This document shows, piece after piece, positions 1,929 through 64,000 of a DNA stretch of 64,000 nucleotides (position 1 is the first letter of the stretch; each line of letters starts with the position of its first letter). A model generated the notes under the pieces. It searched no databases and was not told the origin of the DNA. It saw nothing but the letters and a program-made list of their open reading frames with translations. This DNA is from Scilla litardierei (taxonomy: Eukaryota; Streptophyta; Magnoliopsida; Asparagales; Asparagaceae). The position numbers and the translations under genes are program-made. The stretch spans positions 66,749,486 through 66,813,485 of the forward strand of contig CM061134.1 in NCBI GenBank assembly GCA_030789695.1, written 5' to 3'.

Positions 1929-4035
1929 TGATCGGCCCCGGATATACACCCGAAGAACGATTGTAGTTTTACCGCAAGCGCACGATGTAGTGGCGAGCGG
2001 GTATCGAACTCAAGGAGGTGGTGTTGGTTCCAATCTATCCTAGGTTGGTGCAACTACGAATGTTTTATTGGTGGAGATGGGTATGGAATGATATAATGGA
2101 AATGGTGATGGATGTCGGTGTCGGTGATAGAGAAGTTGGATAAAAAATCGATTAAAATATAAGATAATAAAAGTGTCTAGGGCAGGAAATCCACACTACG
2201 GGTCGTCATTCATCCTTGTAAATAGTGAATCTCAATATTACTAAACTTGTGTCGAGGTGAACTAGTCGTAACTGAATAGAGAACCAAGCTCACGCTCTCG
2301 CGCTATTGCCGGTCTATAGCAACCTAGATTAGGGCCCACTCTCGTGCAAACCCTAATCTAAGCCACTAGCATTAGGGTCGACATCATTGTTCAATCCCCC
2401 CTCGAGCCCACTCTCGTGCAAACTTGAGTTACGATCTAGGTTGTGATAGTTCGTATTCGTCCAATCTCTTTCAAACGAATATGTGTATAGATCTATAATA
2501 AAAATGCTAGCTTTGGTCCAATCTCTTGCAAACCAAGTCTAGCGAATCTCGATTATAAATCTAAATCGAATATCTAGGCCTTCCCATCGATAGGAATCCA
2601 ATCTCTTGCAAACCCCAAATCGATGGAAATTCCTAGCTATCCGTAATAAATCAATCACAACCTAACCTCATAGAAATTCTAGCAATTTAGAAATTTATTC
2701 ATTACAAATATGAAATTAGATCCGTAGGGTTCATCCCCATCCCTATAACAACAATCAACCAAGCATAGCAATAACGATATGAGAATCAATAAAAACCATT
2801 GCTTGCATGTAAAAAGATAGCAAATCAAAGATTCAAATAATAAGAATAAAAATACTTAGCTTTGATGAAGATCTTCAATCCAAATACAAGTTTTTTGATC
2901 CAAGAGGGGGCCTAGGGCATGGCCTAACCTATAAAATAACTCCTAAGAAAAACAATGGGAACCTTTTGGGGACTCCCCTCTAATGGTGGCTACAAAACCC
3001 CTATATAGTCTCCCAAAACCCTAGCAAATAACCCTAGAAAACCCGTCAAATTCGTGCCCAAAAACAGCTCAAACCGCAACTTAAATTCTGGGCCCGCCGC
3101 CGACTCGGCCGAGTGGAACATGTGACTCGGCCGAGTGGAAATTCCAGCACTGCAGCGTCAACTTGCAGAAATTCTCCAGATTTCATCCGACCTCCGATTG
3201 GTGCGTTCTTGGCGGCGTTGGAACTTTCATGAAGTATACTATCCATAAAAAATATGAGAAAAATAATTTGATTGCTGGAATGATAGCAGATTTCAAAAGA
3301 GTGAACGGTTGTCTGAAAATCTGGGCGCTGCGTGTCCTCGGCGTCACTCGGCCGAGTTGACTTCTCTACTCGGTCGAGTGGGCTTCTCTACTCGGCCGAG
3401 TGATAGACCCTGTAAAATTCCAGTAAGTCGGGGGTCTTGGGGGGTCTGTCTTTGGAGGTGACTCGGCCGAGTGGCTTTACTCGCTTGACCGAGGGACATT
3501 CAGTACTCGGCCGAGTCGGAACTCGGGGTGCATTGACGGATTACAGTAAGTTCATGTTTTCTGGATGCCGTCGTTCGTGTGCCACTCGGGAGAGTGGTGT
3601 CTCCATACTCGGATGAGTGGGATGTCGTCACTCGACCGAGTGCACGCTAATCTTCAAGTAATTGCGTGTCCGATCTGGCCGGCCGAGCGGGCTTCTTTGC
3701 TCGGCCGAGTGACTCCTTCACTCGACCGAGTGGCATGCTGAAAATGCCCAATCTTCATCATTTCACTTCCTCGTCACTCCTACGATGTTCTTTCTTCTTC
3801 CACTCGTCTTCTATCGCTGATAGGTCCTCAATAAGTCCATGAGCGATGCTCCGTTACACATGCAAGTCCTTTAAGCTCATTTTTGCTCCCAATTGCTCAT
3901 ATTTCCTGAAATCCGTCAAAAACAAGAAATAGTGAAAAGTAACACAATGTCATCGAATAATCGTGAAAATCGCAATATGAGCAACCGAAATGGTATGCAA
4001 ATATGCAGAAAAAGGTGTAAAATATGGACCGATCA
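1929..4035 (-). repeat. LTR of element A (about 2.1 kb)
   Basis: On the minus strand it starts TGATCGGTCC (4035) and ends GGCCGATCA (1929), six bases before the primer site. It aligns by eye, in reverse, with 10314-12093: matching start (TATTTTACACC), palindromic CACTCGGCCGAGTG cluster, repeated clauses ending in unit words such as CCAATCTCTTGCAAAC, and a GTTCGATACCCGCTCGCC segment near the end. It is about 330 bp longer than the other LTR, so the two are different subfamilies or well diverged. Confidence 0.8.
2995..3731 (-). promoter_or_regulatory. Palindrome array and TATA box in LTR A
   Basis: Perfect or near-perfect ACTCGGCCGAGT copies lie at 3103, 3125, 3346, 3368 (one change), 3390, 3461, 3505, 3630, 3699 and 3720, with weaker ones between. 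On the minus strand the array is followed, about 100 bp downstream, by CTATATAGGGG (around 3008-2998), a plausible TATA box. I infer a U3 enhancer plus core promoter; binding factors are unknown. Confidence 0.6.
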
Positions 4036-4936
4036 GCCACCGGTGCCCTTCCCTCAACGGCTAGCTAGAGCCAAGAAGGAGAAACTGCTAGCCAAGTTTC
4101 TCGAGTATTTGAGAGGGGTGAGCCTCAATATCCCCTTCCTCGACGCTATAGTGGAAATCCCATCTTACGCCAAGTTCTTAAAGGACTTGATCACGGGAAG
4201 GAAGAGGAAGGAGAAGATCATGATCGCGGAGGAAGGGACTTGGTTCACAAAGAGGGAAAAGGAGCCCACCAAATTTAAAGATCCAGGGAGTTTCCGGATT
4301 CCTTGCACTCTAGGCGGTGTCCCCCTACAAAAAGCATTGGTAGATTTGGGGGCTAGTGTTAGCCTCATGCCTCTCTCCATGTTCCAGAAGTTGAATACCG
4401 GCACGGATTTAAAACCTACCGACAAGCGGATTCAACTAGCAGACAGTCGGATTACAAGGCCGGTTGGGATCGTAGAGGACATCCCACTCCAAGTTCTGGG
4501 AGGCATATGTTTGCCATGCGATTTCATGATAATGGACATCAAGGAGGAGGGCGATACATCGCTCATACTTGGACGCCCATTCCTCGCCACCGCCGGTGTC
4601 ATCGTCGATGTGCGGGAGGGGACTCTTACCATGAACGTCGGTAACATCGAAGTGGAGCTCCATATACCGAAGGCAATGAAGCACATGCCGTATCATGAGG
4701 ACCTAGATTACATGGACCTCCTCGACGAGGTCATCGAAGAGGCGATCCCCCACTCCATCGGCGCACCCCACGAAGATAGCTTCGAAGAAGGCCTAGATTT
4801 GGCCGAGGAAGAGAAGATGGAGCCCTCCCCCGATATCTCCATGGCGATTGATGATGGCGACGCTGATGTTACAAGAATACGGGAGCTCTACAAGCTCTCG
4901 AAGTTGAGGACTCCGAAGAAAGCTCCACCGATATGA
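4036..4936 (+). pseudogene. Athila gag C-terminus and aspartic protease, 5' truncated
   Basis: Encodes the Athila gag segment (PFPQRL, then LAKFLEYL and PSYAKFLKDL) and a retroviral-type aspartic protease. The active-site region reads VDLGASVSLMP, the Athila form with DLGA in place of D(S/T)GA, and the flap/C-terminal part reads ILGRPFLATAG, typical of the family. The open frame extends upstream to 3893, but those residues come from the inserted LTR A, so the real coding part starts at 4036. It ends at TGA 4934-4936 after an acidic C-terminus. In complete Athila elements RT would follow; here it is missing, so no polymerase can be made. The protease itself looks undamaged. Confidence 0.8.
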
Positions 4937-5325
4937 CGATCGGTGTCACCGGTAAAGTCGAGGACCGGAACAAGCTCTAGCTTAGGGGAGCCATCCCCAA
5001 CATTGCCCGTGATGAAGGGGCGCTGAGGAAGACCACACACCACCATGATCTAAATCCGAGCGGTCTTACCGACAAATTCGACGGGTGCATCTCATATGCA
5101 CCCAACATCCCGCGCTAATTTGAAAATTTAAAGGGGTCGAGCTCAAGACCTTAAACGAGTGCTTGTCGGGAGGTAACCCGACAGTTATCGCATTATTTCT
5201 ATTTTAGTTTTTATTTTTGTTTTAGACTTTATTAATGTTTTTGAGTCGTTTGTCTGAAAAATTGTGACAACGGGTCCTATTTTCTTTGACAGGAGGAGGA
5301 GGAAAGGATATCTATCATAAGGAGG
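4937..5325 (+). other. Post-pol tail of Athila
   Basis: No long ORF. Contains the GGGTCGAGCTCAAGACC and GCTTGTCGGGAGGTAACCC words (about 5136-5181) that in Athila elements follow the integrase C-terminus. Finding them right after the protease marks the deletion of the polymerase block. An A/T-rich stretch follows. Confidence 0.55.
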
Positions 5326-5451
5326 ATGACCGAGGCGAAGAAGAGCGCTCCAGGAATGCGCTCGAGGCTTAGGAGGAGAAAGAAACCACCTGGAGGAAGA
5401 AAAACAGAGAGTAGAGCCAAAACGGAGCCCCGAAGCAGGAAACAGAGCCTC

Positions 5452-5812
5452 ACTCAACCGAGTACCATAGTCACTCGGCCGAGCAAAGAAAGCCGTCCGC
5501 CCGAGTGGCGCACCAACGAGGGAAGTCTGCTGTACCCAACTCTCTGTCTTTTTTTGTATTTTCAGTATAAACTGCCACTCGGTCGAGTATATTTCTTCAC
5601 TCGACCGAGTGAAATTGATACCCTCCTAGGGCAAGTGCTGCTGAGTAGCTTGTGCCACTCGGCCGAATGGAATTTCTCCACTCAGCCGAGTGTGGTAAAT
5701 ACACTCGGCTGAGTCGTAAGTGGCGATGAGTTTTTTTATAAAAAAATTTTCCGTTACGTCACTCGGCCGAGTGACAGAGTCACTCGGCCGAGTCGTAACC
5801 ACTCCTATATAA
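5452..5812 (+). promoter_or_regulatory. Internal palindrome array with TATA box before env-like ORF
   Basis: Nine ACTCGGCCGAGT-type words (5452, 5473, 5577, 5599, 5657, 5680, 5703, 5761, 5782; the last two perfect) are followed 12 bp later by TATATAA at 5806-5812. The same arrangement occurs in the LTR (array, then TATA). The env-like ATG is at 6352, about 540 bp downstream. I infer an internal promoter producing an env-like transcript. The ORF overlapping this array (5326-5712) reads mostly repeat DNA and is not called as a gene. Confidence 0.55.
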
Positions 5813-6351
5813 GGTGCTGCGGGCTCGGCGTGATTTTCGAAATGCCCAAATCCTCATTCTCGACCGAGCCCGCGCGACCCTTCAGCTCCCCTCACCCGCG
5901 GCACAACCTCCCTCGCCCAATTCAAGCCGCCGCCGGCCCCGATCGCTGCGCCACCACCGGCGACCGCTCCGGCGACCACTCCCCACCGCCGGCGACCACC
6001 CTCGCCGCTGGCCGACCGCCGGTAAACCAAAATTTCGCCCCTTTGCTCCTTTTTCCCCTATTTTTGACGATCCGTACGCCCATTGAGCCCCTAACTCAAA
6101 TCGACTTCTTTACTTATCTGTTATACCCCACCTCCCCCATGTATTTTGAATTTTAAACGCTGATATCATTGTTTGATGTGCCGGCTATCTTGGGGAAGCT
6201 TAGGGGAGCTTTCGGACGCGCTATTGGCTTCGTGGAGGTGGCGTCTTCGCACTTATCTGCTGTTTTGCTCTCGCGGCGTGTTCAGGTACCTTCGTTCCAT
6301 TTTTTTAGCACGCCGCATTTTTTATTAGTTGGGTGAGCACTCGGGGCACAC
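5813..6351 (+). other. Leader between internal TATA box and env-like ORF
   Basis: Pro/Ser-rich short frames in C-rich DNA (5830-6086), then unremarkable sequence. CCGCCGGTAAACC near 6018 and TTCAGGTACC near 6284 resemble splice donor and acceptor contexts, but no splicing can be shown. Confidence 0.3.
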
Positions 6352-8389
6352 ATGCCGCCCCGTACACGGCCACGTACTCGGGGATCTTCCGCCAAGAGGA
6401 AGCGGCTGGATGAGCCCAGCCCCTCCCACGCTAGGGAGAACTCCCCTCCACCTTCACCACCTCACCCCACACAGCCGCTTCCCGCCGATCCCATACACAC
6501 ACAGCCCATCCCCGCTGATCCCATCCCACCACCGGCTCCCGTTGTCGGGCCGCTGGGCATCACGTTCAGAGACGACGCACAGTGCATCCGATTTGAGCGT
6601 ATCGCCCAGTGCCCGATAGTACCCTCCAGGTTCGCTCATTTAGCAGACCTAGACCTCCTGGGGGTACTTGAGGGGATGCTCACGTTGTACGACAACGTGG
6701 GTTGGCGAGATTTTTTGTCTGTGTCGGTGGACACCTACGTCCGTCCGACACTTGAGGTACTTAGCTCGATCACCCGAACCGATGAGGGATGCTCCTTTAG
6801 ACTCATGGATCGAGAGTGTCAGATCTCTATCGATTTTCTTAGAGCATTCTTTCAGTGGCCCGCAGTCCCCACGCCCGACCGAGCCTACGCCCCCACACAC
6901 ATCCCTCCGCCATCTTTCGATTCCCACGCCTTTTGGGCCATGATCACGGGTTTACCACATGCCTTTGACCCTAGTAGGGCCAAGGCCTCAGCCATAGTCC
7001 ACCCCTGCCTCCGCATAGCACAGCGCCTTATGGCGACCACCTTTCTAGCGAGGTACGAGCCTGGGACGATGTCTACGCCTGAGCTCTATATGCTCTACGC
7101 GATGACTCACCCCAGAGTTCTGGATAGGGATGGTGTTGCGATGGTCCCTGCCGTTGAGATTGACGTCGCTAGCTGGTTTTGGACCGCATCATAGTATCGG
7201 TGGGTGCTCGCTCCCCGATATGTTGCGGCGGCCTAATCACCCTGCTAGCCCTGATGACCGGCGAGGACCTTCCAGCCGACCTACGTCGACCTTCGGGCCC
7301 CACTTCACTTTCGATAGACGTCATGGCCTGGATGAAGATGCTTCGTCCCTACGGCCAGCGGAACTGGGTATGGTTGCACGGTCCCTTCGGTGCTGACTAC
7401 ATGATCCTCCCGAGCCCCGCTCGGACACACATAAGACCGGCACACGAGGACTGTCTTCTGGCGATGGATCTCCTGATCCCCACCGCCTACGTGCTTGAGG
7501 CCGAGGAGGCTGAGCAGGCACCCCAACACCTGTAGACCCTGTGATCCCTCAGCCTGAGCCTGCACTTTCTGCCGCTCCCGACACCACTGTCCACACTTTT
7601 ACCGGTGTCGGGAGTACACTTGCTGAGCCGTCCTCCACTTCCACCACGTCTACCGCCACCCCCACCACAGCTGTACCCCTGTCGGTTGAGCCCATCACCT
7701 CTTTGCTACCCGAGCGTCCACCTTCTATTGTTGAGAGCGACGAGTCTTCCTTTGCTGCCGTCGTGGAGACCATGTCCAGTATGATCTCCGCTGGGTTATC
7801 ACCTTTTGGTCCATTCACTTCCTCACCAGTGTTCGACCTTTCTGTCTCAACGGCAGCCGTCCTATCCGAGAGTGTCATGACGTCTGTTCCCACGTCTGTG
7901 TCACTGACCTCTCTTGCTGCCTCGTCACCGATTTTGTCTTCCACTTCCACTGCTGCTGCTTCCACCTCACACCTGCCTACGTCCCAGCCTCGCACTGAGG
8001 CTGGGCATCCACTAGTGAGCACAGCCCCCTTTCCACACATGCCTACTGGCCCGATTGTTTACACCGCCCGTATCAGACATCCCCGGCCTGCTCAGCCTAG
8101 ACCTGTCCGTCCCTCCGCTCCACCACCCCCTGACGCTTTAGTTCAGAGCTTTCATGCTCTTGAGGGGGCGGTGAGTGGACTCAGGGGTGATTTTAGTGCT
8201 CTGTCTGCCACTGTCACCGCCATGCAGCACCGCCTCGAGCTACTTCCCGGCATTCACTTTTGCCTGACCCAGATTCTCGAGCGATTGCCACGACCACCAC
8301 CACCCACCAAGCAGACTGTTACCCAGCCACCACCACCTCCACCTCCACCTCCGCCACAGGACAAAAATGGTGCAGCACCACCAGCTTAG
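6352..8389 (+). pseudogene. Athila env-like ORF (ATHILA ORF-1 family), two frameshifts
   Basis: Begins MPPRTRPRTRGSSAKRKR, a basic N-terminus, then a Pro-rich stretch, then the globular ATHILA ORF-1-like part with the recognisable run PTLEVLSSI...FRLMDRECQISIDFLRAFFQWP. The frame breaks near 7170-7190 (6352-7194 continues at about 7179-7535), and again near 7515-7540 into 7541-8389. The last part is Ser/Thr/Pro-rich and ends in a polyproline run (about residues 265-275 of that segment). No signal peptide or membrane helix is evident. It lies 3' of the (deleted) pol, the position of the env-like gene in Athila. The function of this family is unknown; the retroviral-envelope comparison is positional only. 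Confidence 0.7.
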
Positions 8390-10313
8390 GCACACCCTTG
8401 ATGCCATTGATATTTTTTGCCGTTATGCTGCCCATTCTCTGCTTGGTCCTGATGATTTTTGCCCACCCATCCTCCCCTCACTATTTTTGTCCCCGTTTTG
8501 ATCATATCATTCTATATCCTTTTTCGGGAGTTAGGGAGAGTATTTTTGGTGACACACACATATCTGCATCACTCTTATCCTTGCATGCATCACATCCGCA
8601 TCATATTTTCATTTTGTTATTTTTATTTCTTTTTATCATGCATGCAGCCACCCCCCACCCATTACACGTCTCTCGGTGTGCCACACTTCGCACATTGAGG
8701 ACACTGTGCACTTTAGCTTGGGGGAGTGAGTTCTCACGCTTTCCGCTTTTATCACCTTTATTTTTAGTTTTTCCACGGTTTTCCACTTTTACACCCATTT
8801 TTCATCACTTTTTCATTTTTTTACCATGCATCACGTTTTTCTTATTTTCTTTGTGTGCTGCATTGTAAATAGTTTTTATTTTCTTTTATCTTTATTTCTT
8901 TCATCTTTTGCTAGAGATGATTTTTCTGTGATGATGATGACGTGGTGTTAGATTTTCTCTATATGCATGCTATATTTGTCGTGTCATAGATTTTTATTTC
9001 TGATATCATATGCTATATTCTGTTTTGCATTTAGAAATAGTAACCCTCTCTTTTGCTATATGAAAATGGATGAAATTCTATTATTAGCTGATGTCTGATG
9101 ATTCATATGTATGCTATCGTAGAAAACACACCAAGATTCAGGCATTGATGCTTATATCTGGAGTACTGCTTTCTTTTCTCATATCACTTCTAATTGCATG
9201 ATTTGTACGTCTCACTTCAGGTTGATTGAATGTTTGCTAGCATTGATAAATATGGATTATGTTACTTTTTTAGATCAAACTGAGTAGATTAGATTACCCT
9301 GCTGAAGTTGTCATGCATGTCCTATAGAGTGAACTGAGAGATACATTTATTTCTTTCTCCACATATCTTGAACATAATTTCTTTATTTTATATTCATTGG
9401 TGAATCTCCCCTTAGCAATTCTATTATTGGCATCCACCCGTTATTAAATCACATGCTCCAAATTCCCCAAAACCCAAAGAAAAATACTTGTATATCCTTC
9501 TCTTTGATTTGGGATCATTTGCGTATTTATGTTATGAAAAAAAAGAAAAAGAAAAAGAAAAAGATTTGAGAATAAGAGAAGAAAAGAGAAAAGAAGTTCG
9601 AAAACGATCCCATCTCATATCCTTTCTCTCTTTCTTCCCTCTTTTGCTTTTATTTTTTTTTTCTTTGACTTTTGGAGCATCATAGGAAACGGGGATGTAA
9701 ATATTGTTTTGTATATGCCACCCACGTTTATAGATAAGCTTGGGGGAGAGAATCCAATGATGTGTGAGAGAGTGACTACTTGACGGTGCATGACAATCTA
9801 GGCTAAGTAATATTTTATACTCGGTGAGATTGCTAAAGTTTCACGAAATCTAGAAATCTGCGCTTAGCAGTCATTTCATGATAACCACACTTTTTCTGTT
9901 CTTACTACTCTATCGTGTGATATCTCTTATACTCCTTATAGAGAGCATTCAATGTAAAAGTGTGTGATCTATGATATTGTATACCGCTTTAGATGCTTTA
10001 GACGATGTTAATCTTAGAATTATTCCATTTTTCACGCTATATTGATATTCTTGGGTTTTCTATTTCAAATGCATCATTATACTATGATATCAAAATAAAA
10101 GTCTTTGACATGTGTTTTATATTCGATGCATGCTATAGAGTAAGCAAAACCCACGTCCTGAGAAAAATGATCTAGCAACTTCCCTCTTCGTTTTCTACTT
10201 TGTTTTTCATTTTTCATTTTCCTTTTCTCCATCGTTTTCTTTATCTTTATCCACCGGGTTCGCTTTTTACTCATCTTCCTCGAGGTCGAGTAAGAGGTAA
10301 GCTTGGGGGATTT
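8390..10313 (+). other. Athila 3' noncoding region with repeated polypurine words
   Basis: No gene. AGCTTGGGGGAG recurs at 8715-8726 and 9737-9748, and AGCTTGGGGGA at 10300-10310, where it is the polypurine tract directly before the LTR. The first follows CATTGAGGACACTGTGCAC; element D has a matching block at about 40700-40736. An A-rich (AAAAAG)n stretch lies at 9536-9562. The remainder is T-rich. Confidence 0.6.
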
Positions 10314-12093
10314 TGATCACTCCGTATTTTACACCTTTTTTCTGCAGGTTTGCATGCCATTTAGATCACTCAAATCGTATTTTTCACGTTTATTCGACAA
10401 AATTGCGATGCTTTTCACGATTTGTTGTTTTTGTCGTATTTCAAGAGATTTGGAGCGATTTGGAGTGATTCTGAGATGCACCCACTCCGGAGTGTCACCG
10501 ACGACTCTCTTAAGGGGTATTCTGCGATTGGAGAGGAGTGGAAGAAGAAAGAACGTCGTAGGAGCGACGAGGAGGCAAAAATACGAAGAATGGGCATTTT
10601 CATCATGCCACTTGGCCGAGTGAAGGAGTCACTCGACCGAGCATAGACAGCCCGCTCGGCCGGCCAGATCGGACACGCAACAGAGCTAATATCAGCGTGC
10701 ACTCAGCCGAGCATCGCCAGACCACTCGGCTGAGAACCGAGTCATCCCTCGCCCGAGTGGAGCCAAGACGACGGCAACCAAAAATGTTGAACTCTCTGGA
10801 ATCCGTCAGTCAGCCCCAAAGACCGACTCGGCCAAGTAACGAACGCCGTCCGCCCGAGTGACTCCCGAGGAGACGACCCCCAAGACCCCCAACTCTCTGG
10901 AATCCGTCAAGGTCTCGCACTCTGCCGAGTGACATTTGTCACTCGGCCGAGTGAGCCGTGCTGCCTGTAGCGTAAGTTGCGATTTTGAGGCTGCGCAGGG
11001 ACAGTTTCGTCACAGTTTTTTGGGCGATTTTGGGGTGTATTTAACCCCGGTTTTTAACCTAGTTTAGAGAGCTTTTCAGAACTTTTTGCAGCCTTTTTTT
11101 AGATTACTTTTTAGGAATTAGATTTAGCTTTTAGGGAGGAGAGAAAAGTGATAATTTGTTGGATGCTATTTTGTTCTTCATTGGTTTGTCTCTCTCTCCC
11201 TCAAAAACTCCATTTTATTGATATTTTGAATATTGGTATGAATTCCATTGATTTTATTTGTGAATTTCTATTGAATTTCATTATGAATTGTGAGTAGTTT
11301 TATCGTCTTAGGGCGTAGGGATGACCCTACGAACCCTATTTCTAATTTGTGATGAATTGGTGAAATTATTGCTAGAATTGATTAGGGTTAGTTTGGGATT
11401 GATTTAATACGAATAGCTAGGGATTCATACCGATTGGGATTTGCAAGAGATTGGATCCCAATTCGATAGGAAGCCCTAGAAATTCGAATTGGGTTGCAAT
11501 TGAATTTCTCCGGAATCGGTTTGCAAGAGATTGGACCGAAACTAGGGTTTTCGATTGCAATTCTATACCAATACCCGTTTGCAAGAGATTGGACGGGTAG
11601 GAACTATCCCAACCTAGGTCGTAGCTCGAGTTTGCACGAAAGTGGGCTCGAGATACGATTGAACGATGATGTTGTTCTTCACGCTAGCTTGCCTAGGTTA
11701 GGGTTTGCAAGAGATTGGACCCTACCCTAGGTTTCCTATAGACCGGTAATAGCGCGAGAGCATGAGCTTGGTTCAACATTTAGTTGCAACTAGTTCACCC
11801 GAATTTCAAGTCTAGCAATTGTGAAACCTACGAATCACAATGATGAGATACGGCAAGTAGCGGGGATTCCCTATCCCTAGGCGTCTTTATTAATTTGATA
11901 TTTTCTTTCGTATAATTGAACGACTGTGACCGCATTACTGCAAACATTTCTCTACCATTCCTATAGCCAGGTTGACTGAAGAAGACACTGTCATTAGGCC
12001 TCCTTGTGTTCGATACCCGCTCGCCGCTACACCGTGCTTTTGCGGTAAGACTACAGTGTCGTCGTCCCGGGACGTGTATCCGGGGCGCGATCA
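10314..12093 (+). repeat. 3' LTR of the Athila element (about 1.8 kb)
   Basis: Starts TGATCACTCCG right after the polypurine tract and ends GGCGCGATCA, where SIRE gag sequence begins. Contains the ACTCGGCCGAGT-like array (10610-10952), a TATA-like box, and a U5 part with repeated TTGCAAGAGATTGGA clauses (11443, 11521, 11578, 11705). Homologous to the inverted LTR at 1929-4035. Confidence 0.85.
10610..11044 (+). promoter_or_regulatory. Palindrome array and TATA-like box in Athila LTR
   Basis: ACTCGGCCGAGT-type words from 10610 to 10952 (the last perfect), several decayed, followed by TATTTAA at 11038-11044. Same order as in LTR A and the internal copy. Confidence 0.5.
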
Positions 12094-17263: not shown

Positions 17264-17542
17264 GAGTTCAACCTTCATGTTATATCATATTTGAACTCAT
17301 ATCATTATTCTACTTCTCTTCTTTTGATAAATTATATGTTTCACATATATTTTTTAAAGAGATGTATTTGAGATTTTTGATGATTTCGATTGTTTGGATT
17401 GATTTACGAAATTATTTTTTACGAGAATATATTATATTTTGATAATGTTTCCTTGATTAGATTTGTGTTAGAGTATAGGTCATAAGTTGAGTGTCTCTAT
17501 CCTCTGGATTTTAACCCCAATATGCATTTCTGGACCAGGACA

Positions 17543-17963
17543 GACGACTGTCATTTCTTCGATAGTCGACTGCCCAACGCAATTTTATTAAACAACAGAC
17601 TGTATTTTTCGCACATGCGACAGTTGAATATTTTACAGTCGACTGTCCCCGTAACAGGCGACTACAATTTGGTCATCAGGCGCCTGTCCAAATTTTCAGA
17701 AGTCTATGTTTTTCATCATCAAATTTTTGATTGTCTGTTAGTCGACTGATGTGTATGTTGCAGTCGACTGTCTATCCGACAGGCGACTGTGTATTACCCA
17801 CCAATCGATTGTATGTCAACCTAAGCCCATCTTTATCCCTTCAACTAGTTTACTGATGATTGTTCATCAGTCGAATGTCAACTGTTGTAGAGGTTCGTCA
17901 ACTTGATTTGAGCCGTCGATTTTTCGATCTAACGGCCCAGATTCTTTGGACACCTATTTATAT
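17543..17963 (+). promoter_or_regulatory. Internal CAGTCGACTG array with TATA before env-like ORF
   Basis: Repeats of CAGTCGACTG and derivatives (GACGACTGTC, AGTCGACTGCC, CAGGCGACTG) from 17543 to 17880, followed by TATTTATAT at 17955-17963 and the env-like ATG at 18211. The LTR carries the same array before its own TATA (20984-21845). The corresponding copia 2 region is at 45062-45483. Confidence 0.5.
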
Positions 17964-18210
17964 CATAGAGAGCCATCGATTCGATCGTTTGTTTTCTCTC
18001 TCATCCGACGAAAACTCCCTTGTCTTCCTCGCTTCGAAATCCACTGTAGTCATTGTTTTTTACTTTGATTCAAAGCTTATCTCCTCTGTTCTGTCGAGTT
18101 CTTGGTCGCTTGTCTCCTTCTCATTCATTCATCACCGTTTAGGTATCTTTCTCTCTCATGTCGATTTATTCGTACGGTTTGTTTTTTCGCTCCTTTCGGT
18201 TGATTGCTCA

Positions 18211-19669
18211 ATGACACCCAAGACCAAGGGGAAGGCTGTTGCTCCTAAATGTACAAGGATCTCTAAGTCGACCATTGTCAAAACCAAACGACCCCATATA
18301 GCTCGCACCAAGAACGCTGATCCTCCATCTAACTCTTCGAGTGTCTATTCCCCTTCGTCTTCTTCCTTCTCTGAAGCTGAGCCTGTCATGAAGCGTCAGC
18401 GTAAGCCCGTTGGTGTTCACATTAATGAGCCTGCCGCTGAGGCCAAACCTATTAACCCTGAGTCTAGTTCAGATTCTCCTCTAGACCAAAATCCTGCAGT
18501 GCCTCCTGCTGATCCTTTAGTTCCTATTTGCCGAGATGATTCTTGTCTGGCAAAGTTCCACTCCATGCTAGGGAGCAATATCCTTCGTGAGCATTTTATT
18601 GTTTATTAGGCTTTTACTACTGAGAGATTCCTTGAGATTCTATCCTCTACCCACTTGGGTGATCTCTTTTGATACTCACATATCGACTCCCCACGTGCCT
18701 ATCCCTTCTTGGTCAAATTATTCTATGCCAACCGAATTCGCAGTGAATATGCTGACACAGGAGAGATAGACACTGTGGTTCAGGGGACCCGTATCTGTCT
18801 TGTCCCTACTCTCTTAGGGACCATTCTTAGGATCCCCTCTACTAGCTCTCTTCATGTTGACATCTCTATTTTTGATGTTCGTGATCTCGATCAGGATGTC
18901 CTTCAGGACATGTTCTGTGTGATCCCCTCTTTCCTTTCTTTTGGAGCCCGGGCCTCCATGTTCACGGCTAGGGGTTAGGCTGTTCACCTTGCGGTGAAGT
19001 CCAACCTCCTACCGAAGTATGGCTCCTCCGACCAGCCCTCTGAGGAGATCCTCAAATACATGTATGATATCTTCTCGGGTATGGTAGTAAAATGGGTCGG
19101 TGTCCTCCTTGATCGGATGGACAAGGTCGAGTTTACTTCTGCCTCCACTCATATCCCTTATGGAGGTATCCTTACACTTGTTTTCCCCCATTTTGGTATT
19201 GATTTGACTCCTTTCGAGCCTTTGCCTCTTGGTCCTCTCCTAGATGCTTCTGCGAAGTCAAAGTCCTCTTCGGCTCTACAGTCAGCATCTAAGAAGAGGC
19301 AACCTACCTCTGCTCCTTCGTCATCCACCATTCCTCCAGCTGATCAGCCATCTACCTCAGCCGCACCCTCTCATGACCCTTTGGTCGAGAGGATTTTTTG
19401 TTTATATAAGTTATTCTTTCTGTCGTTCCAGTATCAGGGAATTCCTTCCACTGAGCTCCTCAGATGCTTTGTTCCACCTCAGCCTACTCAGCCTTCCTCC
19501 GCCTACCATCACTGAGATTGTTGAGCATCCAGGTGTTACTGCTCCTCAGGATGTTTCTGTTGCTGTTGCTGATCCTCCTCCTGAGGATTCCAGGGTTGAT
19601 CCAAAGACTCAGGCGTTCCAGATTGTTTTGGCATCCTCCTCTAATGCTGATATGGACACTCACCTTTAG
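18211..19669 (+). pseudogene. SIRE env-like ORF, stops and one frameshift
   Basis: Begins MTPKTKGKAVAPK, basic, then a Ser-rich linker, then a globular part with YANRIRSEYADTGEI, GTRICLVPTLLGTIL and FPHFGIDLTPFEPLPLGP, as in plant 'putative transposon protein' domains found in env-like ORFs. Stops in frame at 18607, about 18670 and 18976. The Ser/Pro C-terminus continues in another frame to 19669. No signal peptide or clear membrane segment. It sits 3' of pol, the env-like position in SIRE elements. Copia 2 has the same start at 45729. Confidence 0.65.
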
Positions 19670-19813
19670 ACTTAGATTTTGTGTTAGGGTTGATTTTTTT
19701 TGGAGTGCCTGTATGTATCTTACTTTAATTTCGGTATGATGTATGTATTTTGATCAGTTTTTGTAGATGTACATGAGTTTTTGAATGTATTTTATGCTCA
19801 TGTATCTTTGATC

Positions 19814-19842
19814 ATATATATATATATATTTTGAAAGAAGTA

Positions 19843-19878
<36 letters not shown>

Positions 19879-19892
19879 TGTATGTATGTATA
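19814..19892. repeat. (TA)n and (GTAT)n microsatellite
   Basis: A TATATA run at 19814-19828, a short spacer, then TATATATA followed by ten or so GTAT units to 19892. Confidence 0.9.
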
Positions 19893-20577
19893 TGAAAATG
19901 CAGTTACTTCATTTTCTGTTTCTCACATTGTCTCATTGTTTATCTTATATGTGTGAATTTTGTGAAATTGTCTCCTTGTATGCGATATCATTTGTATGAT
20001 GTAATTTGAGACGATTTTAAATCTTTTAGCTTGAGATGTTGATATTTGATTATCATTCCTTTAGTCAACTTGTATTTCTTGTGTTTTATGAGTTTTTGGT
20101 ATGTATGTCAAGAAGATGCCCATTTGTGATTATTTTGTTCTCCGAAGATTTGTTGGCATCAAATTGGTTGTACATCCTATCTTTATACTCTCATGATGGT
20201 TTTAGTACTTATTTAGCACTATTGTTGTTATTTTACTCTCACCTTTTGGATAATGCCATATGGGGAGAGAAATAAACGGATTAATAATGTATGTACTAAG
20301 AAAATTCTAATTCTAAACTTGAATCTAAGATTGAAGTTGCCTAAGATTCAGGGGGGAGTAAGATGTAACGAACGTGGATTATAAAATCCTAGATTTCATG
20401 GACTCAACCAAACCATTCCATTCATGCATATCTTACTCATTTGCTTCATTTGATCTATAGATGCTCTAATATTTATTGACTAACTTTATTGGCATCTATG
20501 TAGGGGGAATAAGTTTCCTTTAAGCACAATTATTTATCTTTTTTTAAGTTTGTTTGTCATCATAAAAAAGGGGATAA
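19893..20577 (+). other. SIRE 3' noncoding region and polypurine tract
   Basis: No gene. CAGGGGGGAG near 20350 and AAAAAAGGGG at 20564-20573 are purine runs; the second lies directly before the LTR start and is the likely plus-strand primer. Confidence 0.6.
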
Positions 20578-22491
20578 TGTTGGGTATTGGACTTCTCCTT
20601 ACTTGGTGTTAATGATGAACAAACATAAATACTTGTGACTAATCCCCTATTTGCAGTTAATCCATTGCCTAAGCATATCATGAGGATCAATTAGCAATGG
20701 ATGTCAATCAAAGATCAATGAAAGCAAGAAAAGTGGATTGGATGATCAAAGACGGTGATTTAAGCTCCTAGAAGACTTCAAGCTCATACTTTGGAAAGAA
20801 GAAAGAGTTTTACAAATGTAATCTTCTTTTTTCTCTTCTAGTATGTAGCTTAGAAGTAGAACTATGATGGAGCACACTTACACATACACACACATCTTCA
20901 TTTCAATCATAGGAAATCATTAGATCATTTTTCCTTTGACTCCAATTCATATTCTCTCTAGAATGTGCATATTGTGATCTCAACAGTCGACTGCTAAACG
21001 TTTTACAGTCGCCTGTATAAAAATAGTCGACGATGTTTTGTTCAACAGTCGCATGTTATGCACATACCTAATTAGTTAATTTTTGGGCTTCTAAGCTTTA
21101 ACTCAATCAGGCGACTACAAAACGTTTCACATGCGCCTGACCAAGAGGCAATTGACTGTGATTTGTAAATCATTCGACTGTCTGTCATCTGACCAATGAT
21201 CATTCCATTTTATCTGGCCAGTCGACTGCTGTTGTATTTATAGTCTCCTGTCCATGGACAGTCGATTGTAAATGCTTCAAGGGTCGCCTGCCCATGATTC
21301 TTCTGTAGGACTTGCTCTCTGGAATAATTCTTATTCTAGTGCTAGTCGACTGATGTTGCTATTACAGTCGACTGTCCAATGGCATAGTCGAGTGTCAATG
21401 CTTCAACAGTCGTCTGTCTTTGAGCCTCTCTACAGACTCAACTCTCTGGAAAATGGCAGGGTTTGTGACAGTCGGCTGGAGAAGGAACTACAGTCGCCAG
21501 TTGGATTTACAATCGACTGTCATCTCTTCATCATTCGCATGTCCTATATTCCCAGACTTTTCTGAGGCTTTCTCAACTTACCCAGATTACAGCCAATCGC
21601 CTGTATAAGGATTTACAGTCGCCTGTTGGTTTAACAGTTGACTGTCTACTCCTCATCAATCGACTGTCCGTGTGGCAATTTACAATTTGAATTCTCACAT
21701 ATCCTCTGACACATTGCAGTAGTCGACTGTGTTTTGTTCAACAGTCGACTGTCGCATGTGCAGATTCTATCTGTTGGCAGTTTCTCAACGGATTTCAAAG
21801 GGGCTTTTGGGGATTTTGTTTGAGGGCTTTAGGGCAAATATAAAGGCAGCCTCTACTGTTCCATTGAGAAGTTACTCACTTGCTCATTCATTCAATCTTT
21901 CATTCATCTAAGATCAAAGCTCTCAAAATCTTAAAGCCCTAGAATTCATATCTTTAATCTCTTACTCTCCAACCTAGAACCTAAGAGAAATCGTCTAAGC
22001 ATTTGGTGCAGTCAAAAGAAATGGCTTTCCTCTTTTCCAAGAGAGTCATTCAACACACAACACACTCTCCTTCAAGTTCTACTTCAATGCATAGGTAATT
22101 GTAAATGTTGTTTATTTCATATTTCATAACTTTCGTTATTTGATTTACACTCGGATTGTGAGAATGGTTTTGCTTGCTCCCAAGTTGTGGAAGTCAAGGA
22201 CATCGAGTGTATTTCGATTTCACTTGTATGGTTGCTACAAGTGGGGTTTAAAGAAACCTCAAGTTAGGGTTCTAACTTGAGTATCCCGTTGTAACCCGGT
22301 AGAAGGGACGTAGGATTATCGAGAACATGTCGGGAAGTGACTTAGGTAATCCGAACCCTTGAAACATCCTTGCGTTTGCATTGTAAGGTTTATTTTCATT
22401 CCGCATTAATTGTTGGTTAGGAATTTAATTTGGTGTAATTATCATTTTAAATTGCATAACACTATACAACCCCCTTCTAGCTTTTTCCACA
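20578..22491 (+). repeat. SIRE LTR shared by copia 1 and copia 2
   Basis: Starts TGTTGGGTATTGG after a polypurine tract and ends CTTTTTCCACA, 19 bases before a TGGTATCAGAGC primer site. So it serves as 3' LTR for the upstream element and 5' LTR for the downstream one. Contains a long CAGTCGACTG array and a TATA box. Confidence 0.85.
20984..21845 (+). promoter_or_regulatory. CAGTCGACTG palindrome array and TATA box in SIRE LTR
   Basis: CAGTCGACTG is perfect at 20984-20993 and 21742-21751, with many one- or two-base variants between (e.g. CAGTCGCCTG, CAGGCGACTA). TATAAAG follows at 21839-21845. I infer a U3 enhancer and core promoter. Confidence 0.6.
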
Positions 22492-24635: not shown

Positions 24636-24928
24636 TGTAACGACTGGTTTTCATGTATCTGGATTTATTATATTATATTATATGTTTTGATGGATTTTCT
24701 CCTTATGTGTAGTTTTCGTCTCCATAACTTTCATTTTTCGATCATATCGTCGTGTTTTCTTAGCTTCTTCCGTAGGATCGTCGATTTTGGAGCAAGTCAT
24801 TCGTGACGGGCTTCGTATTGGTCATATCTTATTGTTAGATCAAGCCTAGGAGTCTTAGGAATCGATCTCGGGGCTCCGCACTCCGTATCGGAACTTTTGG
24901 TGCTAATTAGCCGGTGTAAGAAGGGCCA

Positions 24929-25260
24929 CCGACTGACTAAATGACGATCCAGTCGGTCGGCAAACCTTCTTGAACCGACTAGTTGGCTTTCTAAATTATT
25001 CTGGAGTTACTGTTTATCGTTAGTCGGTCTAAGAACGTTGGTTGACCGAAAAGGTTGCAAACTAGTCGGTCGGTAATGCTTCTTTAACCGACTAACTCAT
25101 CAACTATTTTTGACACTAGTTACTATTTACACTTAGTCGGTCTACGTTGTTCAACCGACCGACTAGATCCCAAACTAGTCGGTCAGCAGTTGGTCTTTGA
25201 CCGACTAAGCAGTGCAGAAAACCCTAGTTTTGCCCTAGCCGCCACCAAACTCTATAAATA
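24929..25260 (+). promoter_or_regulatory. Tekay-1 U3 inverted-word array and TATA box
   Basis: AGTCGGTC and GACCGACT words alternate. The commonest form is GACCGACTAG, an 8-nt spacer, then CTAGTCGGTC, a potential 10-bp hairpin. About three units of roughly 110 bp. TATAAATA follows at 25253-25260. The same layout recurs in the 3' LTR (32033-32364). Confidence 0.65.
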
Positions 25261-27012: not shown

Positions 27013-27131
27013 TCTCTCTGTAACTGCAATTATCAGGGATAACAATAATAATATAAGATTGTCCAACAAATGAATTCGATATCCGAGTCACAAGCTATGA
27101 GTCTAATCTGCTTCGTTTTCTGTGTCATTAG

Positions 27132-38735: not shown

Positions 38736-38941
38736 GGTTTCGGTTTGATATTAGCTTAGCTTAGGTTCGTTAGACTACACATAAAAACAAAAAAAACAAA
38801 CACAAACACAAAAACAAAACAAATACAATAACCAAGAAATATTTCCCCCACCATCATATTATCTTTTTGTTATTCTCTTGTACTATTGACGATCCTCTCT
38901 AGTTTTCTTATTTTTGTTGTCTAGGTATCTTTGCTATTACC

Positions 38942-42205: not shown

Positions 42206-44101
42206 TGACGCGTGTTCATATTTCACCTTTTGCACACGCTATTCATCGTGTTTTCATATGCGTTTCATCTCATTCTATTTTGTATATATATCACATTTTG
42301 GTTCATATTGACTATTGGGTGTATTGTTTGTATTTCAGGTAAATGTCGGCATTTCGGTGTTTTCTGCAGTCAACCTTGCATGTCGGGACCAAAGCATTCT
42401 TATACGGTAAAGATCTGATGGCCAAAGATGAGGAGTTGAAGTTTTGGAGCTTCACCCGGTCGTGTGGATGAGCCACCCGACCGGGTCGTATCATGGTATC
42501 AGTCATGCACTCCACCCGGGCAACACACTGCGCCACCCGATTGGGAGAATGAACGGATAGTGAAGAGATAGAGTGGCATTCATGGAGGAGCTCCCACCCG
42601 ATTGGGTCATCTCCTCAGGTCATTTTTGGGAAGAGCTCACCCAACCGGTTGACACTTCATCCGATCGGGTAGCCTTTTCTTCCCCTTTTGTGCAGTGCTG
42701 CTGCATTTATTGAAGATCTGCTATCATTCCAGTGGGAGTTTGGGTGATCTCTTATTTTTTTAGCATCAGCATCGTCGTCAGATTTCCAACGATAGGTCAT
42801 ATGCCCAAATTCGATTTTTCTACATTTTCTGAAATTTTTTGAGCGCGGCTGTGTGCTGAAATTCTGGGGTGTCTGGAATCTGATTACCACCCGATCGGGT
42901 GAGTCCATTTTCAGCAGTTCAGTGTCTCTGGTTGTTTCCACCTGATCGGATGAACTTTCACCCGATCGGGTGGCACTTTTTCAGCAGTTTTAGTGGGTAT
43001 TTGTACCCGAACTGTTAGGTTTTTGTGGGGGCCTATAAATATGAGATGTTGGACGACTTGTAAGGGGTTCCCCTCTATTTTCCAGGAGTTTTCAACCCGT
43101 TTCATGGGAGCCTTAGATTAGTTTTGATTAGGGTTTCTATTTCAATAAATCTTGTAATGGATTGATGGATTCTAATGCAAGATAAGTATTTATTTTCTTA
43201 TTTCCATTGCTTTGTGTTATGTTCATTGTGCTTGATGATGATTGTTTGTTTGCATTTATTATTGCTTGCTATCATGTTCTTCATCATTGAGTAGTTCTTG
43301 GTGAACCCTAATATGGGTTGGAGTAGGATTGATGCTTGAGATATTTCATTTGACTTGATTGCATGTCAAGTGTTTGATTTAATGTGTCAATATGTATGTC
43401 TAGGAATCTGAGACCAACCTGTATGGAAACACACTAGATGGAGTTGGGGGTTCGGCTCCGGATGCTTATCCCGTCCAGATCCGCTTTGATGTATTGCTAG
43501 GAATCACATTTGACCTATTTGGCCATTATGCTAGGGCGTTTCATTGTCATCGGCGGGAAAAAGACCGTCTTTGACCGTTGGGTCAAAAGGAAATAAAACC
43601 GGAGTTTGATTCTCTAGCCGTAGCTCACACCTTAGAGTTGACATTGAGTCCTTGCACGTGGGAACGGCTTGGACGAAATGTTGGGAGCTATCATTGTGGC
43701 CTTAATGCTCTCGATTCCGGAGGGTGTTGGACATGGGAATGCCCACCGTCCGAAACCGGGTAGACCTAGCGTATCATCCTGGGAACCGACCGGAATATCG
43801 GGCCCACTGGGCACTAGGTACCACCTTTTGGGGAATGTCTCACACTGGATCGAGTAGAATACCAAGGGTCATGAGTGCTCTAGCCCGTGTTAGCGGGGAT
43901 TCATTTCTTGTCTTTTACATTTCTTTCCTTTATTTCTACACTACCCACTCATATCATCTGCGTAGCTCTCACACAACCAAGGCGAGTCTAGTAGCCTTCA
44001 AGCCATCCACCTCCCTGTGTTCAATATACCCGCACCCTACACTAACCGTGCACTTGCGGTAAAATGACACCGCGCCCTAATCATAAATGTGGCGTCGGTC
44101 A
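42206..44101 (+). repeat. 3' LTR of element D
   Basis: TGACGCGTGTTC to CGTCGGTCA. Palindromes 42465-42975 and TATAAAT at 43034-43040 match the 5' LTR. Confidence 0.9.
42465..43040 (+). promoter_or_regulatory. Palindrome array and TATA box, element D 3' LTR
   Basis: CACCCGATCGGGTG-type words (clear near 42890 and 42960), then TATAAAT at 43034-43040. Confidence 0.55.
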
Positions 44102-44106
44102 ATGTA

Positions 44107-44782: not shown

Positions 44783-45061
44783 GAGTTCAACCTTCATATT
44801 GTATCATATTTGAACTCATGTCATCATTCTACTTCTCTTCTTTTGATAAATTATATGTTTCACATATATTTGTTTTAAGAGATGTATTTGAGTTTTTCGA
44901 TGATTTCGATTGTTTGGATTGATTTACGAAATTATTTTTTACGCGAATCTATTATATTTTGAGAATGTTAATTTGATTGGATTTGTGTTAGAGTATAGGT
45001 CCTAGGGTGAGTGTCTCTATCCTCTGGATTTTAACCTCATTGTGTATTTCTGGACCAGGAA

Positions 45062-45483
45062 AGACGACTGTCATTTCTTTAACAGTGGACTGCCCAACAC
45101 AATTTTATTAAACAGCAGACTGTATTTTTTGCACATACGACAGTTGAATATTTTACTTTCGACTGTCCCCGTAACATGCGACTGCAATTTGGTCATCAGG
45201 CGCCTATCCAAATTTTCAGAATTCTCTGTTTTTCATCATCAAATTTTTGATTGTCTGTCAGTCGACTGTTGTGTATGTTACAGTCGACTGTCTATACGAC
45301 AGGCGACTGTGTTTTACCCACCAGTCTACTGTTTGTCATCCTAAGCCAATATTTATCCCTTCAACCAGTTGACTGACGATTGTTCATCAGTCGACTGTCA
45401 AATGTTGTGGCGGTTCGTCAACTTGATCTGAGCCGTCAATTTTTCGATCCAACGGCCCAGATTTTTTTGACACCTCTTTATAT
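45062..45483 (+). promoter_or_regulatory. Internal CAGTCGACTG array before env-like ORF (copia 2)
   Basis: Same repeats as copia 1 at 17543-17880; a weaker TTTATAT lies near 45478. The env-like ATG is at 45729. Confidence 0.45.
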
Positions 45484-47329: not shown

Positions 47330-48165
47330 ACGTCGTAAACGGCAAATCGTCGGAGAGAAAGCACCTAGGTGGGGCCCACAGTAGTCCTAGGGACCAATTG
47401 GGGACCCACAATACCTCTGGAGAACTTGGGGGGGCCCACGGTGGCAAGTGGTGCGACGGATGCGGGGTTGCGACGATTGCCTCTCGGTCAGACACAGCCG
47501 GTGCGGGGACTTGGCTCGGTCGGTGCGGGAGAACGGCTGTGCACAGCACAGCGGGGTCGGGCTCTCGGTCGGTGTGGGGCGAGGTCTCGGTCGGTGCGGG
47601 CGAGATGCGGGGTCGGGCGCTTGGCGGGGCACTGCAACGTTGCAAGCGTTGCAATGTTGCGGAGAGCGGGCTTGAGCGGGCGGGCACCTCGGTCAGACAC
47701 GGGGCGACGGAGCGGGGCGATGGTGCGGTGCAGAGCGGAGGGGGTGCGGGCGAGATCTCTCGGTCAGACCGAGAGAATCTCTCGATCGGTGCGTGGATTT
47801 GCGGAGCGGGCGATGCAGCGGTGTGGAGCAGGCGATGGTGCGGGGCGGCTGTTGGTCGGTGCGGGGAAATAGGGGCGTTTTCCTCGGTCAGAGCGGCGGC
47901 GGCGGCTGCAACGTTGCGACGAATCGTCACAAGTGAGTTTTGGGGTTTTGGGAGCGGCTAGGGTTAATTTCTTGCGAAAATAGGTCTTCCTATAGATTGT
48001 TTATATAGTGTAGAGGGGTTGACTTGGTCTAGGGCTAAATCTAATAAGATTAGGAGTTTAAAATAATTTAAAATTCAAAACCCACTCTCCTAATCTTGTG
48101 GGGATTGGGTGCGGCCAAGATAGGGGTTAGAATTTGGCTCAAAAATTGTTTAAAACGTTTTAAAC
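47330..48165 (-). promoter_or_regulatory. Tekay(-) LTR core: palindrome, TATA box, GC-rich leader
   Basis: On the minus strand a perfect 18-bp palindrome GTTTAAAACGTTTTAAAC (48165-48148) precedes TATATAA at 48007-48001. Downstream a GC-rich block has TGCAACGTTGCA (47633-47644) and a 9-bp-arm inverted repeat CTCTCGGTC/GACCGAGAG. Both strands are open for about 220 codons here; I attribute that to GC content. Confidence 0.4.
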
Positions 48166-55632: not shown

Positions 55633-56078
55633 TGACCGACTAGATGACGATCCAGTCGGTCGGTAAACCATCTTGAACCGACTAGTTGGCTTTCTAAATT
55701 ATTCAGGAGTTACTATTTATCGTTAGTCGGTCTAAGAACGTTGGTTGACCGACTAGGTTGCAAACTAGTCGGTCGGCAATGCTTCTTTAACCGACTAACT
55801 CATCAACTATTTTTGACACTAGTTACTGTTTACTCTTACTCGGTCTCAGAACGTTCATCGACCGACTAGATGTCAAACTAGTCGGTCAGTAGTTGTTCTT
55901 TGACCGACTAACTCTTAGTTTAGATTTTCGACTGGAGTTACTGTTTACACTTAGTCGGTCTGCGTTGGTCAACCGACCGACTAGTTCTCAAACTAGTCGG
56001 TCAGCAGTTGTTCTTTGACCGACTAAGCAGTGCAGGAAACCCTAGTTTTGCCCTAGCCGCCACCAAACTCTATAAATA
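55633..56078 (+). promoter_or_regulatory. Tekay-2 U3 array (four units) and TATA box
   Basis: GACCGACTAG/CTAGTCGGTC pairs, four units versus three in Tekay-1; TATAAATA at 56071-56078. Confidence 0.65.
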
Positions 56079-62516: not shown

Positions 62517-62562
62517 GTATTTGGAAATTCCAAGGACGGAATTTTTCTTAAGTTGGGGAGGA

Positions 62563-64000
62563 TGTAACGACTGCTTTTCATGTATCTGGATTTATTATGA
62601 TATAATATATGTTTTGGTGGATTTTCTCCTCATGTGTGGTTTTCGTCTCCGTAGCTTTCATTTTCGATCGATTCGTCGTATTTTCTCGTTTCTTCCTTAG
62701 GATTGTCGATTTCGAAGTATGTCATTCGTGACGGGCTTCATAACGGTCGTATCTTACTATTAGATCAAGCCTAGGAGTCTTAGGAATCGATCCCGGAGCC
62801 CCGCGCTCCGTATCGGAACTTTTGGAGCTAATTAGCCGGTGTAAGAAGGGCCATCGACCGACTAGATGACGATCCAGTCGGTCGGCAAACCTTCTTGAAC
62901 CGACTAGTTGGCTTTCTAAATTATTCAGGAGTTACTGTTTATCGTTAGTCGGTCTAAGAACGTTGGTTGACCGACTAGGTTGCAAACTAGTCGGTCGGCA
63001 ATGCTTTTTTAACCGACTAACTCATCAACTATTTTTGACACTAGTTACTGTTTACTCTTAGTCGGTCTCAGAACGTTCATCGACCGACTAGATGTCAAAC
63101 TAGTCGGTCAGTAGTTGTTCTTTGACCGACTAACTCTTAGTTTAGATTTTCGACTGGAGTTACTGTTTACACTTAGTCGGTCTGCGTTGGTCAACCGACC
63201 GACTAGTTCTCAAACTAGTCGGTCAGCAGTTGTTCTTTGACCGACTAAGCAGTGCAGGAAACCCTAGTTTTGCCCTAGCCGCCACCAAACTCTATAAATA
63301 CCCCTCCAAACGTTTTCTTCTCCTCCCTCACAACCTAAAACCCTAATTTCTCCCCCCTTTGAGCCCCTATCTCCCTCAAACCCTATTTCCTTCATCCAAG
63401 CTCAATCTCCATCATCCAAACCCTCCCTCCACTCATTCTACCTCTCATCTTCCCCAAATCTCCATCAAACCCCCAAAAATCCCCTAAAACCCTATTTCTC
63501 CAAACTTCTCCAATCATTTCCAGATCTGAACCCTAGGTTCCCCGGGAGCGTTTCTTCCTTCGCCGTGGTTGCTCGGTGTTATTCTTCCGTTCCCTACGCG
63601 GTAATACTCGATTCCTTTAATTTTAGCATAACCCACATTGACATTGTGAAACCCTAATAAAATGGATTGTTAGATGATTAGGGTTCTAATAAGAAACCTA
63701 TTTAGGATCATTGTGCTAATAATTGTTTTGCCATAACAGTGAATCTTTCCGTAGTTAGCTTGTGTGACGATCTTCATTGCTCGTCAATCCCGGTGTCAGG
63801 CAAGTGAAACTTGCATCTCTTGATTTGGGCCATGTCTTAGGCCATTTACCTTGCTTTAGCGTAAAAGAGACTAGACGGTGAAAGGATAGCCGTTTAGACG
63901 CCATTGACCTAGCTTGACAACAAAGCTTGGTCTGTCACCTTCATCATGCTTGTATGTCACGTTTACTTTCCCTTAACGGTACGCGTATTAAATGTTCATG
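62563..64000 (+). repeat. 3' LTR of Tekay-2 (partial)
   Basis: Starts TGTAACGACTGC after the polypurine tract 62550-62562. Array 62855-63248 and TATAAATA 63293-63300 as in the 5' LTR. Runs off the window before the micro-ORF. Confidence 0.95.
62855..63300 (+). promoter_or_regulatory. U3 array and TATA box, Tekay-2 3' LTR
   Basis: Four-unit inverted-word array as in the 5' LTR, followed by TATAAATA. Confidence 0.6.

Follow-up and report, generated by a model that had tools for sequence, protein, structure and literature searches.

The nested retrotransposons and their word arrays

The stretch of DNA analysed here (64,000 nucleotides, hereafter the window) lies at positions 66,749,486 to 66,813,485 of contig CM061134.1 of Scilla litardierei, and is part of contig C5 of the 3.68-Gb assembly. 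Its content is a nest of long terminal repeat (LTR) retrotransposons, called by self-alignment, open reading frames (ORFs) and Pfam, with all LTR ends being approximate. Several of these elements carry arrays of a short word of their own in the U3 (unique 3') part of the LTR, and in the Athila and SIRE elements the same word recurs inside the element, upstream of an extra gene. An earlier, sequence-only reading of this DNA had described the U3 arrays but missed both the internal arrays (5452-5793, 17540-17878 and 45060-45398) and the fact that sites are often paired at 19-23 bp.

The window starts with the 5' LTR of an Athila element on the minus strand, Athila(-) (approximately 1950-4035), followed by a plus strand copy, Athila(+) (approximately 4035-12093), with its 3' LTR at approximately 10314-12093. 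Athila shows gypsy-type gag and pol together with an ATHILA ORF (Pfam). Athila(+) has a protease-bearing ORF (3893-4936, plus strand; ORF list and Pfam), and no reverse transcriptase match was found between this ORF and the ATHILA ORF. Two SIRE copies, with an integrase core according to Pfam, occupy 12094-45785 and are interrupted by Tekay(+) (24636-34095) and by an element here called D (36793-44102). A Tekay copy on the minus strand, Tekay(-), starts at 45791 and a second Tekay(+) at 55341, Tekay showing a gypsy pol and a sub-threshold chromo match. The names Tekay and SIRE are labels of the sequence-only reading, which we take to be appropriate. According to self-alignment the two in-line SIRE copies have one LTR in common, as after recombination between copies. 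An 87-bp tandem repeat of 2.3 copies (1731-1934) adjoins the Athila(-) LTR and contains a primer-binding-site-like word, presumably of the tRNA-Asp type.

Sites were called with up to three mismatches for 12-mers and four for 14-mers, and clusters of words were found in the LTRs of Athila, element D, SIRE and Tekay at or near the places where they had been seen before. The U3 array of the Athila(-) 5' LTR (3103-3731, minus strand) has 12 sites of the ACTCGGCCGAGT type and a TATA-like word 96 bp past its proximal edge. The remaining U3 arrays are all on the plus strand. That of the Athila(+) 3' LTR (10610-10952) has eight sites and TATTTAA at +86, and that of SIRE (20983-21752) has 22 sites of the ACAGTCGACTGT type with a TATA-like word at +87. 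In element D, ten sites of the CACCCGATCGGGTG type lie in the 5' LTR (37037-37576) and nine in the 3' LTR (42453-42972), both with TATA at +62. Tekay(+) has 9-base half-sites, TAGTCGGTC/GACCGACTA, in alternating, inverted orientation, at 24931-25207 (first copy, 5' LTR, TATA at +46), 32035-32311 (first copy, 3' LTR), 55634-56025 (second copy, 5' LTR) and 62856-63247 (second copy, 3' LTR). Tekay(-) shows a GC-rich CTCGGTC cluster with 22-bp tandem stretches at 47483-47883, downstream of a TATA-like word. Genome-wide, ACTCGGCCGAGT has 233,458 exact copies versus 109 for the reversed control word.

The sample was extended by 17 further 10-kb stretches at fixed round coordinates (L009-L025), seven of which contain arrays of these word types (L009, L011, L018, L019, L020, L023 and L024). 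That clusters end shortly before a TATA-like box, as had been claimed, is borne out: of the 21 arrays, 17 are followed by such a word within 130 bp, and one has such a word on its distal side. The four arrays that lack a downstream match are those of both L019 LTRs and both internal SIRE arrays, where a TTTATATC-like word, noticed by eye (near 17963 in the first copy), falls outside the TATA pattern used.

Perfect palindromes of at least 10 bp were counted and compared with 200 dinucleotide shuffles. The enrichment that the sequence-only reading anticipated was found in the U3 of Athila(-) (7 versus 0.97 shuffled, p 0.000) and of SIRE (6 versus 1.18, p 0.000), was marginal in the 3' U3 of element D (3 versus 0.78, p 0.035) and was not seen in the U3 of Athila(+) (2 versus 0.65, p 0.155), the 5' U3 of element D (2 versus 0.79, p 0.15) or the two counted U3s of Tekay(+) (1 versus 0.55, p 0.425; 1 versus 0.73, p 0.51). 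The internal Athila array (4 versus 0.39, p 0.005) and the two internal SIRE arrays (4 versus 0.45 and 3 versus 0.29, both p 0.000) are enriched as well. Excess also occurs elsewhere, namely in array-free SIRE sequence at 17963-20576 (12 versus 2.32, mostly AT repeats), outside arrays in the R-U5 (repeat and unique 5') part of Tekay(-) (6 versus 1.83, p 0.015) and in the U3 of Tekay(-) (3 versus 0.59, p 0.02), where the words are AT-rich. Hence the notion of palindromic words in every family can be kept, with these limits, for Athila, element D and SIRE but not for Tekay, with its alternating half-sites and no palindrome excess.

Internal arrays and the pairing of sites

The internal Athila array (5452-5793, plus strand) consists of nine sites. 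The word TATATAA, a candidate TATA box of an internal promoter, starts 13 bp past it (5806-5812, plus strand), and 559 bp separate the end of the array from the ATHILA ORF (6352-7194, plus strand; 280 aa; PF03078, E 9.9e-12), the extra gene in env-like position, which is followed by a further ORF at 7541-8389. Ten more loci were fetched from listed word-pair places and picked for spacers resembling those of the internal array. All ten have an ATHILA ORF downstream of the array; since they were picked by their array this represents linkage in homologous copies rather than independent recurrence. By eye, a TATA-like word is found within about 15 bp of the last site in all 11 aligned copies (window and ten loci). 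In a pol-bearing copy (L036 adjoining L029) about 330 bp lie between the end of the last pol-side ORF and the array; the ORF preceding that one has reverse transcriptase, RNase H and integrase zinc domains (Pfam).

These copies fall into two subfamilies, which were compared as three versus seven copies, leaving out L035 and dropping a doubtful tenth site from the alignment. Identity between subfamilies is 91.6% in the nine sites, 74.7% in the pair spacers, 76.7% in the rest of the array and 71.7% in the TATA zone, and amounts to 57.5%, with 26% gapped, downstream of the internal TATA. The ATHILA ORF of the window, compared with the best tblastn piece of each of seven subfamily B loci, gives a synonymous divergence (dS) of 0.63-0.90 and a ratio of nonsynonymous to synonymous divergence (dN/dS) of 0.20-0.33, which points to purifying selection between subfamilies. 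Other values of dN/dS are 0.25 (L035), 0.37 (L032, one stop) and 0.88 (L033, dS 0.046). A comparison of the ATHILA ORF with a protein database yielded 1022 candidates, none at E <= 0.001, and a single-sequence fold prediction with a mean pLDDT (predicted local distance difference test) of 39.1 was not used.

The two internal SIRE arrays (17540-17878 and 45060-45398, plus strand) have 12 sites each. The first lies ahead of a broken extra ORF of which the first piece is found at 18211-18609 (plus strand), the next piece (18673-18975) matching PF20167 weakly (E 0.053). L009 contains an open Sirevirus-type extra ORF (6604-8223; 540 aa; PF20167, E 3.4e-16), whose N-terminus is strongly basic; the stretch upstream of that ORF holds no such array. 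N-termini are basic in the extra ORFs examined. The Athila and SIRE extra proteins match at BLASTP E 0.19 and at an hhalign probability of 9.6% (P 0.0034), and the ORF of L018 matches PF20167 at E 0.0032, below the family cut-off; these weak matches are no more than suggestive of a distant relation between the two extra genes.

The sites are not evenly spread. Among the 148 distances between neighbouring sites in the 16 arrays whose words are of palindrome type, 81 measure 19-23 bp; other short spacings number four at 8-18 bp, four at 24-40 bp and five at 41-45 bp. Random placement gives means of 0.41-2.34 expected spacings of 19-23 bp per array, with p <= 0.04 in 15 of 16 arrays and 0.053 in L023, although the 16 rows are not independent since they include homologous copies. 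In Tekay the distance between half-sites is for the most part 19 and 23 bp by turns, groups of half-sites are 42-60 bp apart, and one stretch of L020 is irregular. Genome-wide, exact Athila words form 32,543 pairs with gaps of 4-16 bases versus none for the reversed control, and among the first 50 places listed only gaps of 9, 10 and 11 occur (21, 25 and 4 by hand count). A count that does not depend on predefined words covered the window and the 17 stretches, excluded tandem-like pairs and considered distances of 8-80 bp; of 49 pairs of repeated palindromic 8-mers, 18 were 19-23 bp apart.

Kinship of the families and a second Athila clade

The sequence-only reading considered the families unrelated, which does not apply to element D. 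Its LTRs align with the LTR of L018 (74-76% over 315-326 bp), a stretch with an ORF matching PF03078 at E 5.1e-18, and this identifies D as a likely Athila relative; no tblastn match to the ATHILA ORF was found in D, and D is tied to Athila by its LTR alone. L019, L023 and L024 have words of the type ACTCGACCGAGC/T, and pieces of their LTRs match Athila(-) at 73-86% over 125-198 bp. Athila, element D and these three loci therefore look like a single radiation with drifting words, which reduces the separate cases to Athila, SIRE and Tekay. Convergence between copia and gypsy elements, as had been proposed, is thereby based on fewer and closer families. Independent occurrence in both fits, because no alignment of at least 100 bp joins arrays of different families in the window, but given the possible distant kinship of the extra genes an internal module of promoter plus gene may have come to copia and gypsy elements by shared descent.

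L018 and its neighbour L040 represent a second Athila clade with an ORF 32-35% identical to that of the window. Their 19 kb contain 23 dyads of the form CA[AC]CCGATCGG[GT]TG (at most one mismatch), all within three arrays: eight in the 3' LTR, eight internally and seven in the 5' LTR, each array having a TATA-like word at +12. The word of the first clade is absent from these 19 kb within two mismatches, and 15 first-clade loci show no dyads of the second type within one mismatch. Thus the word differs jointly in all three arrays of the second-clade element, as would be predicted if a single factor recognised every array. Both clades include Athila copies in which no pol ORF was seen but which retain gag and/or protease ORFs, the ATHILA ORF and the internal array (window 3893-12093, L032 with L037, and L018 with L040, where L040 had no tblastn search for pol).

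L041, which lies downstream of the second L024 array, was examined for a third Athila clade having a different word and a separate ORF; none was found, L041 showing neither any of the words nor a tblastn match. On its minus strand L041 does contain two ORFs of 186 aa, almost identical and separated by 6.1 kb (1699-2259 and 7808-8368), which probably mark the LTRs of a different element that has none of the words. The array of L011 is best read as a minus-strand SIRE LTR. Other dense words were seen in L022 (3327-3461; a GC-rich CAGCGGG/CCCGCTG array of alternating orientation in steps of 7-13 bp) and in L017 (730-1954; CCTGGCC/GGCCAGG words of either orientation, with 26 of them in up to 600 bp).

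Possible role of the arrays

We think it fairly probable that the arrays serve as platforms on which a dimeric factor binds cooperatively and drives two promoters. Each array would offer multiple sites to a dyad-recognising DNA-binding factor, often in pairs or triplets with centre distances of 19-23 bp; at this distance, roughly two turns of the helix, adjacent dimers would lie on one side of the double helix and could bind cooperatively. Athila and SIRE would use their own word both in U3, for the genomic RNA, and before the internal TATA-like word, for a separate mRNA of the extra ORF, one factor co-activating both promoters; in the second Athila clade all arrays would likewise answer to one factor, the word differing in all at once. 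The half-sites of the families (CACTCGG, TRCTCGR, CACCCGA or CAACCGA, TAGTCGG, CAGTCGA) have, by eye, the core [ACG][TC]CG[AG] in common, so one factor family, rather than separate ones, could read all words. The cis-regulatory design for dimeric factors suggested by the sequence-only reading is thus favoured by the dyad words, their pairing, their place before TATA and the site conservation in one array, but Tekay does not have palindromic words.

Several observations weigh against this interpretation. Tekay(-) has no comparable array upstream of its TATA. Site conservation was measured in one internal array alone, where spacers and TATA zone also exceed the leader in identity, and the joint word change was observed in a single element. 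Pair spacers resemble each other more than shuffled spacers do (0.36-0.57 versus 0.25-0.30, with 11-base Athila spacers cut to 10 and 7- to 9-base spacers left out), and therefore pairing may partly stem from duplication. Longer gaps lack helical phasing without repeated values: a peak near 10.75 bp (R 0.387; 34 gaps, 9 arrays) had p 0.042 versus jittered gaps but 0.33 on 25 distinct values, and is not claimed.

A special form of the dimeric-factor reading, which we consider unlikely, has the factor encoded by the element itself: the ATHILA ORF or the PF20167-type ORF of SIRE would specify a nuclear regulator that binds the word of its clade in U3 as well as upstream of the gene encoding it, be it an autoregulatory activator or an anti-silencing protein. 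This would agree with an internal array directly upstream of the ORF, with word and ORF both diverging between the two clades, with the low dN/dS and the basic N-termini of the ORF, with its retention in three elements without detected pol, and with the nuclear signal predicted in a related sunflower Athila protein (PMC11728184). It is at odds with the arrays of element D and Tekay, where no such ORF was found, with four Sireviruses that lack ENV and keep the LTR motifs (PMC2829016, Table 3) and with the lack of a DNA-binding domain according to Pfam, and the comparison covers two clades only. A broader version, which we would also call doubtful, is that Athila and Sirevirus, which represent the two principal superfamilies of plant LTR retrotransposons, share this two-promoter circuit, the env-like ORF being a nuclear regulator that binds the paired words in both places; word and protein would co-evolve as a clade-private switch, and relatives without the ORF, such as D, would be driven in trans.

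It is distinctly improbable that the arrays work through chromatin or RNA, with CpG-rich palindromes folding in the transcript or attracting small RNAs and methylation, as was proposed for maize Sireviruses, where small RNAs are reported to be in excess at palindrome clusters (PMC10760457, citing 2016 work). The observed/expected ratio of CpG is indeed 1.11 in both Athila U3s versus 0.87 and 1.03 in R-U5, and 1.29-1.37 in the U3 of Tekay versus 0.82 and 0.77 in R-U5, but the U3 of SIRE is CpG-poor (0.59), a fold-back role requires neither the 19-23 bp pairing nor a position right before TATA, and the internal array sits between pol and the ORF. That the arrays have no function at all, having grown by duplication of a unit of about 21 bp and persisted as passengers of multicopy families, is very improbable: the similarity of pair spacers, the SIRE spacer that is present twice and the partly tandem Tekay arrays (period 113-115 bp) would be explained, but not sites that remain 91.6% identical while the leader drops to 57.5%, nor one element's word being common to places without alignable flanks of at least 100 bp, nor the similar pairing on the same side of TATA across several families.

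Known systems offer partial counterparts to the cooperative platforms that we favour. By the title of a 2013 work of Gomez-Orte et al., the gypsy element Grande is said to have, behind pol, an accessory gene with its own promoter and a nuclear product; Grande belongs to another lineage (Tat). Foamy viruses, as an analogy only, control both their LTR and an internal promoter located upstream of accessory genes through one transactivator.

A close likeness is found with the repeated motifs of Sirevirus (Bousios et al. 2010, PMC2829016), palindromic words in the upper LTR half before the TATA box, with further copies before ENV where present, for which an internal ENV promoter was already suggested; the copia part of our findings has accordingly been known since 2010. 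Many word copies are also found here: 22 sites in the SIRE U3, 12 in each internal SIRE array and 8-12 per Athila array, against the eight or more per element by which repeated motifs are recognised. The copies before ENV are matched by the internal arrays of SIRE and Athila, and the nearby TATA by SIRE (+87) and Athila (+96, +86). The Sirevirus core CGG-CCG is present in the Athila word ACTCGGCCGAGT and absent from the SIRE word ACAGTCGACTGT of the window, as from the motif of Tnd-1 (PMC2829016). According to that work the motifs are confined to Sireviruses, the other copia elements in the comparison having none, whereas here the Ty3/gypsy element Athila has this layout in both places; a pairing distance was not met in the parts of PMC2829016 drawn on here. 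Because of their gypsy-type gag and pol and their ATHILA ORF, the Athila arrays are not members of the Sirevirus repeated motifs, but are built alike. Family-specific short words in dense arrays in non-coding parts of the element, changing between related families, are also known from VANC/VANDAL anti-silencing (PMC5735166). There the motifs, of DNA transposons, are non-palindromic in the parts drawn on here and all point the same way, and an identified protein of the element binds them, whereas the arrays described here are candidate binding sites.

In searches of the open-access PMC literature no report was found of such arrays in Athila, of 19-23 bp pairing or of a joint word change. What is new is thus the pairing distance, the joint change of the word and a gypsy counterpart for U3 and internal arrays alike. 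The function of envelope-like ORFs of plant retrotransposons has been described as unproven (PMC2829016, section 20). With an element's own words before the extra ORF and in the LTR, in gypsy and copia elements alike, conserved above their surroundings and jointly different in a second clade, a regulatory role of this ORF becomes directly testable, and the pairing distance provides a sharp prediction for binding. Given the copy number of ACTCGGCCGAGT, any factor that binds it would meet unusually many potential sites in one genome.

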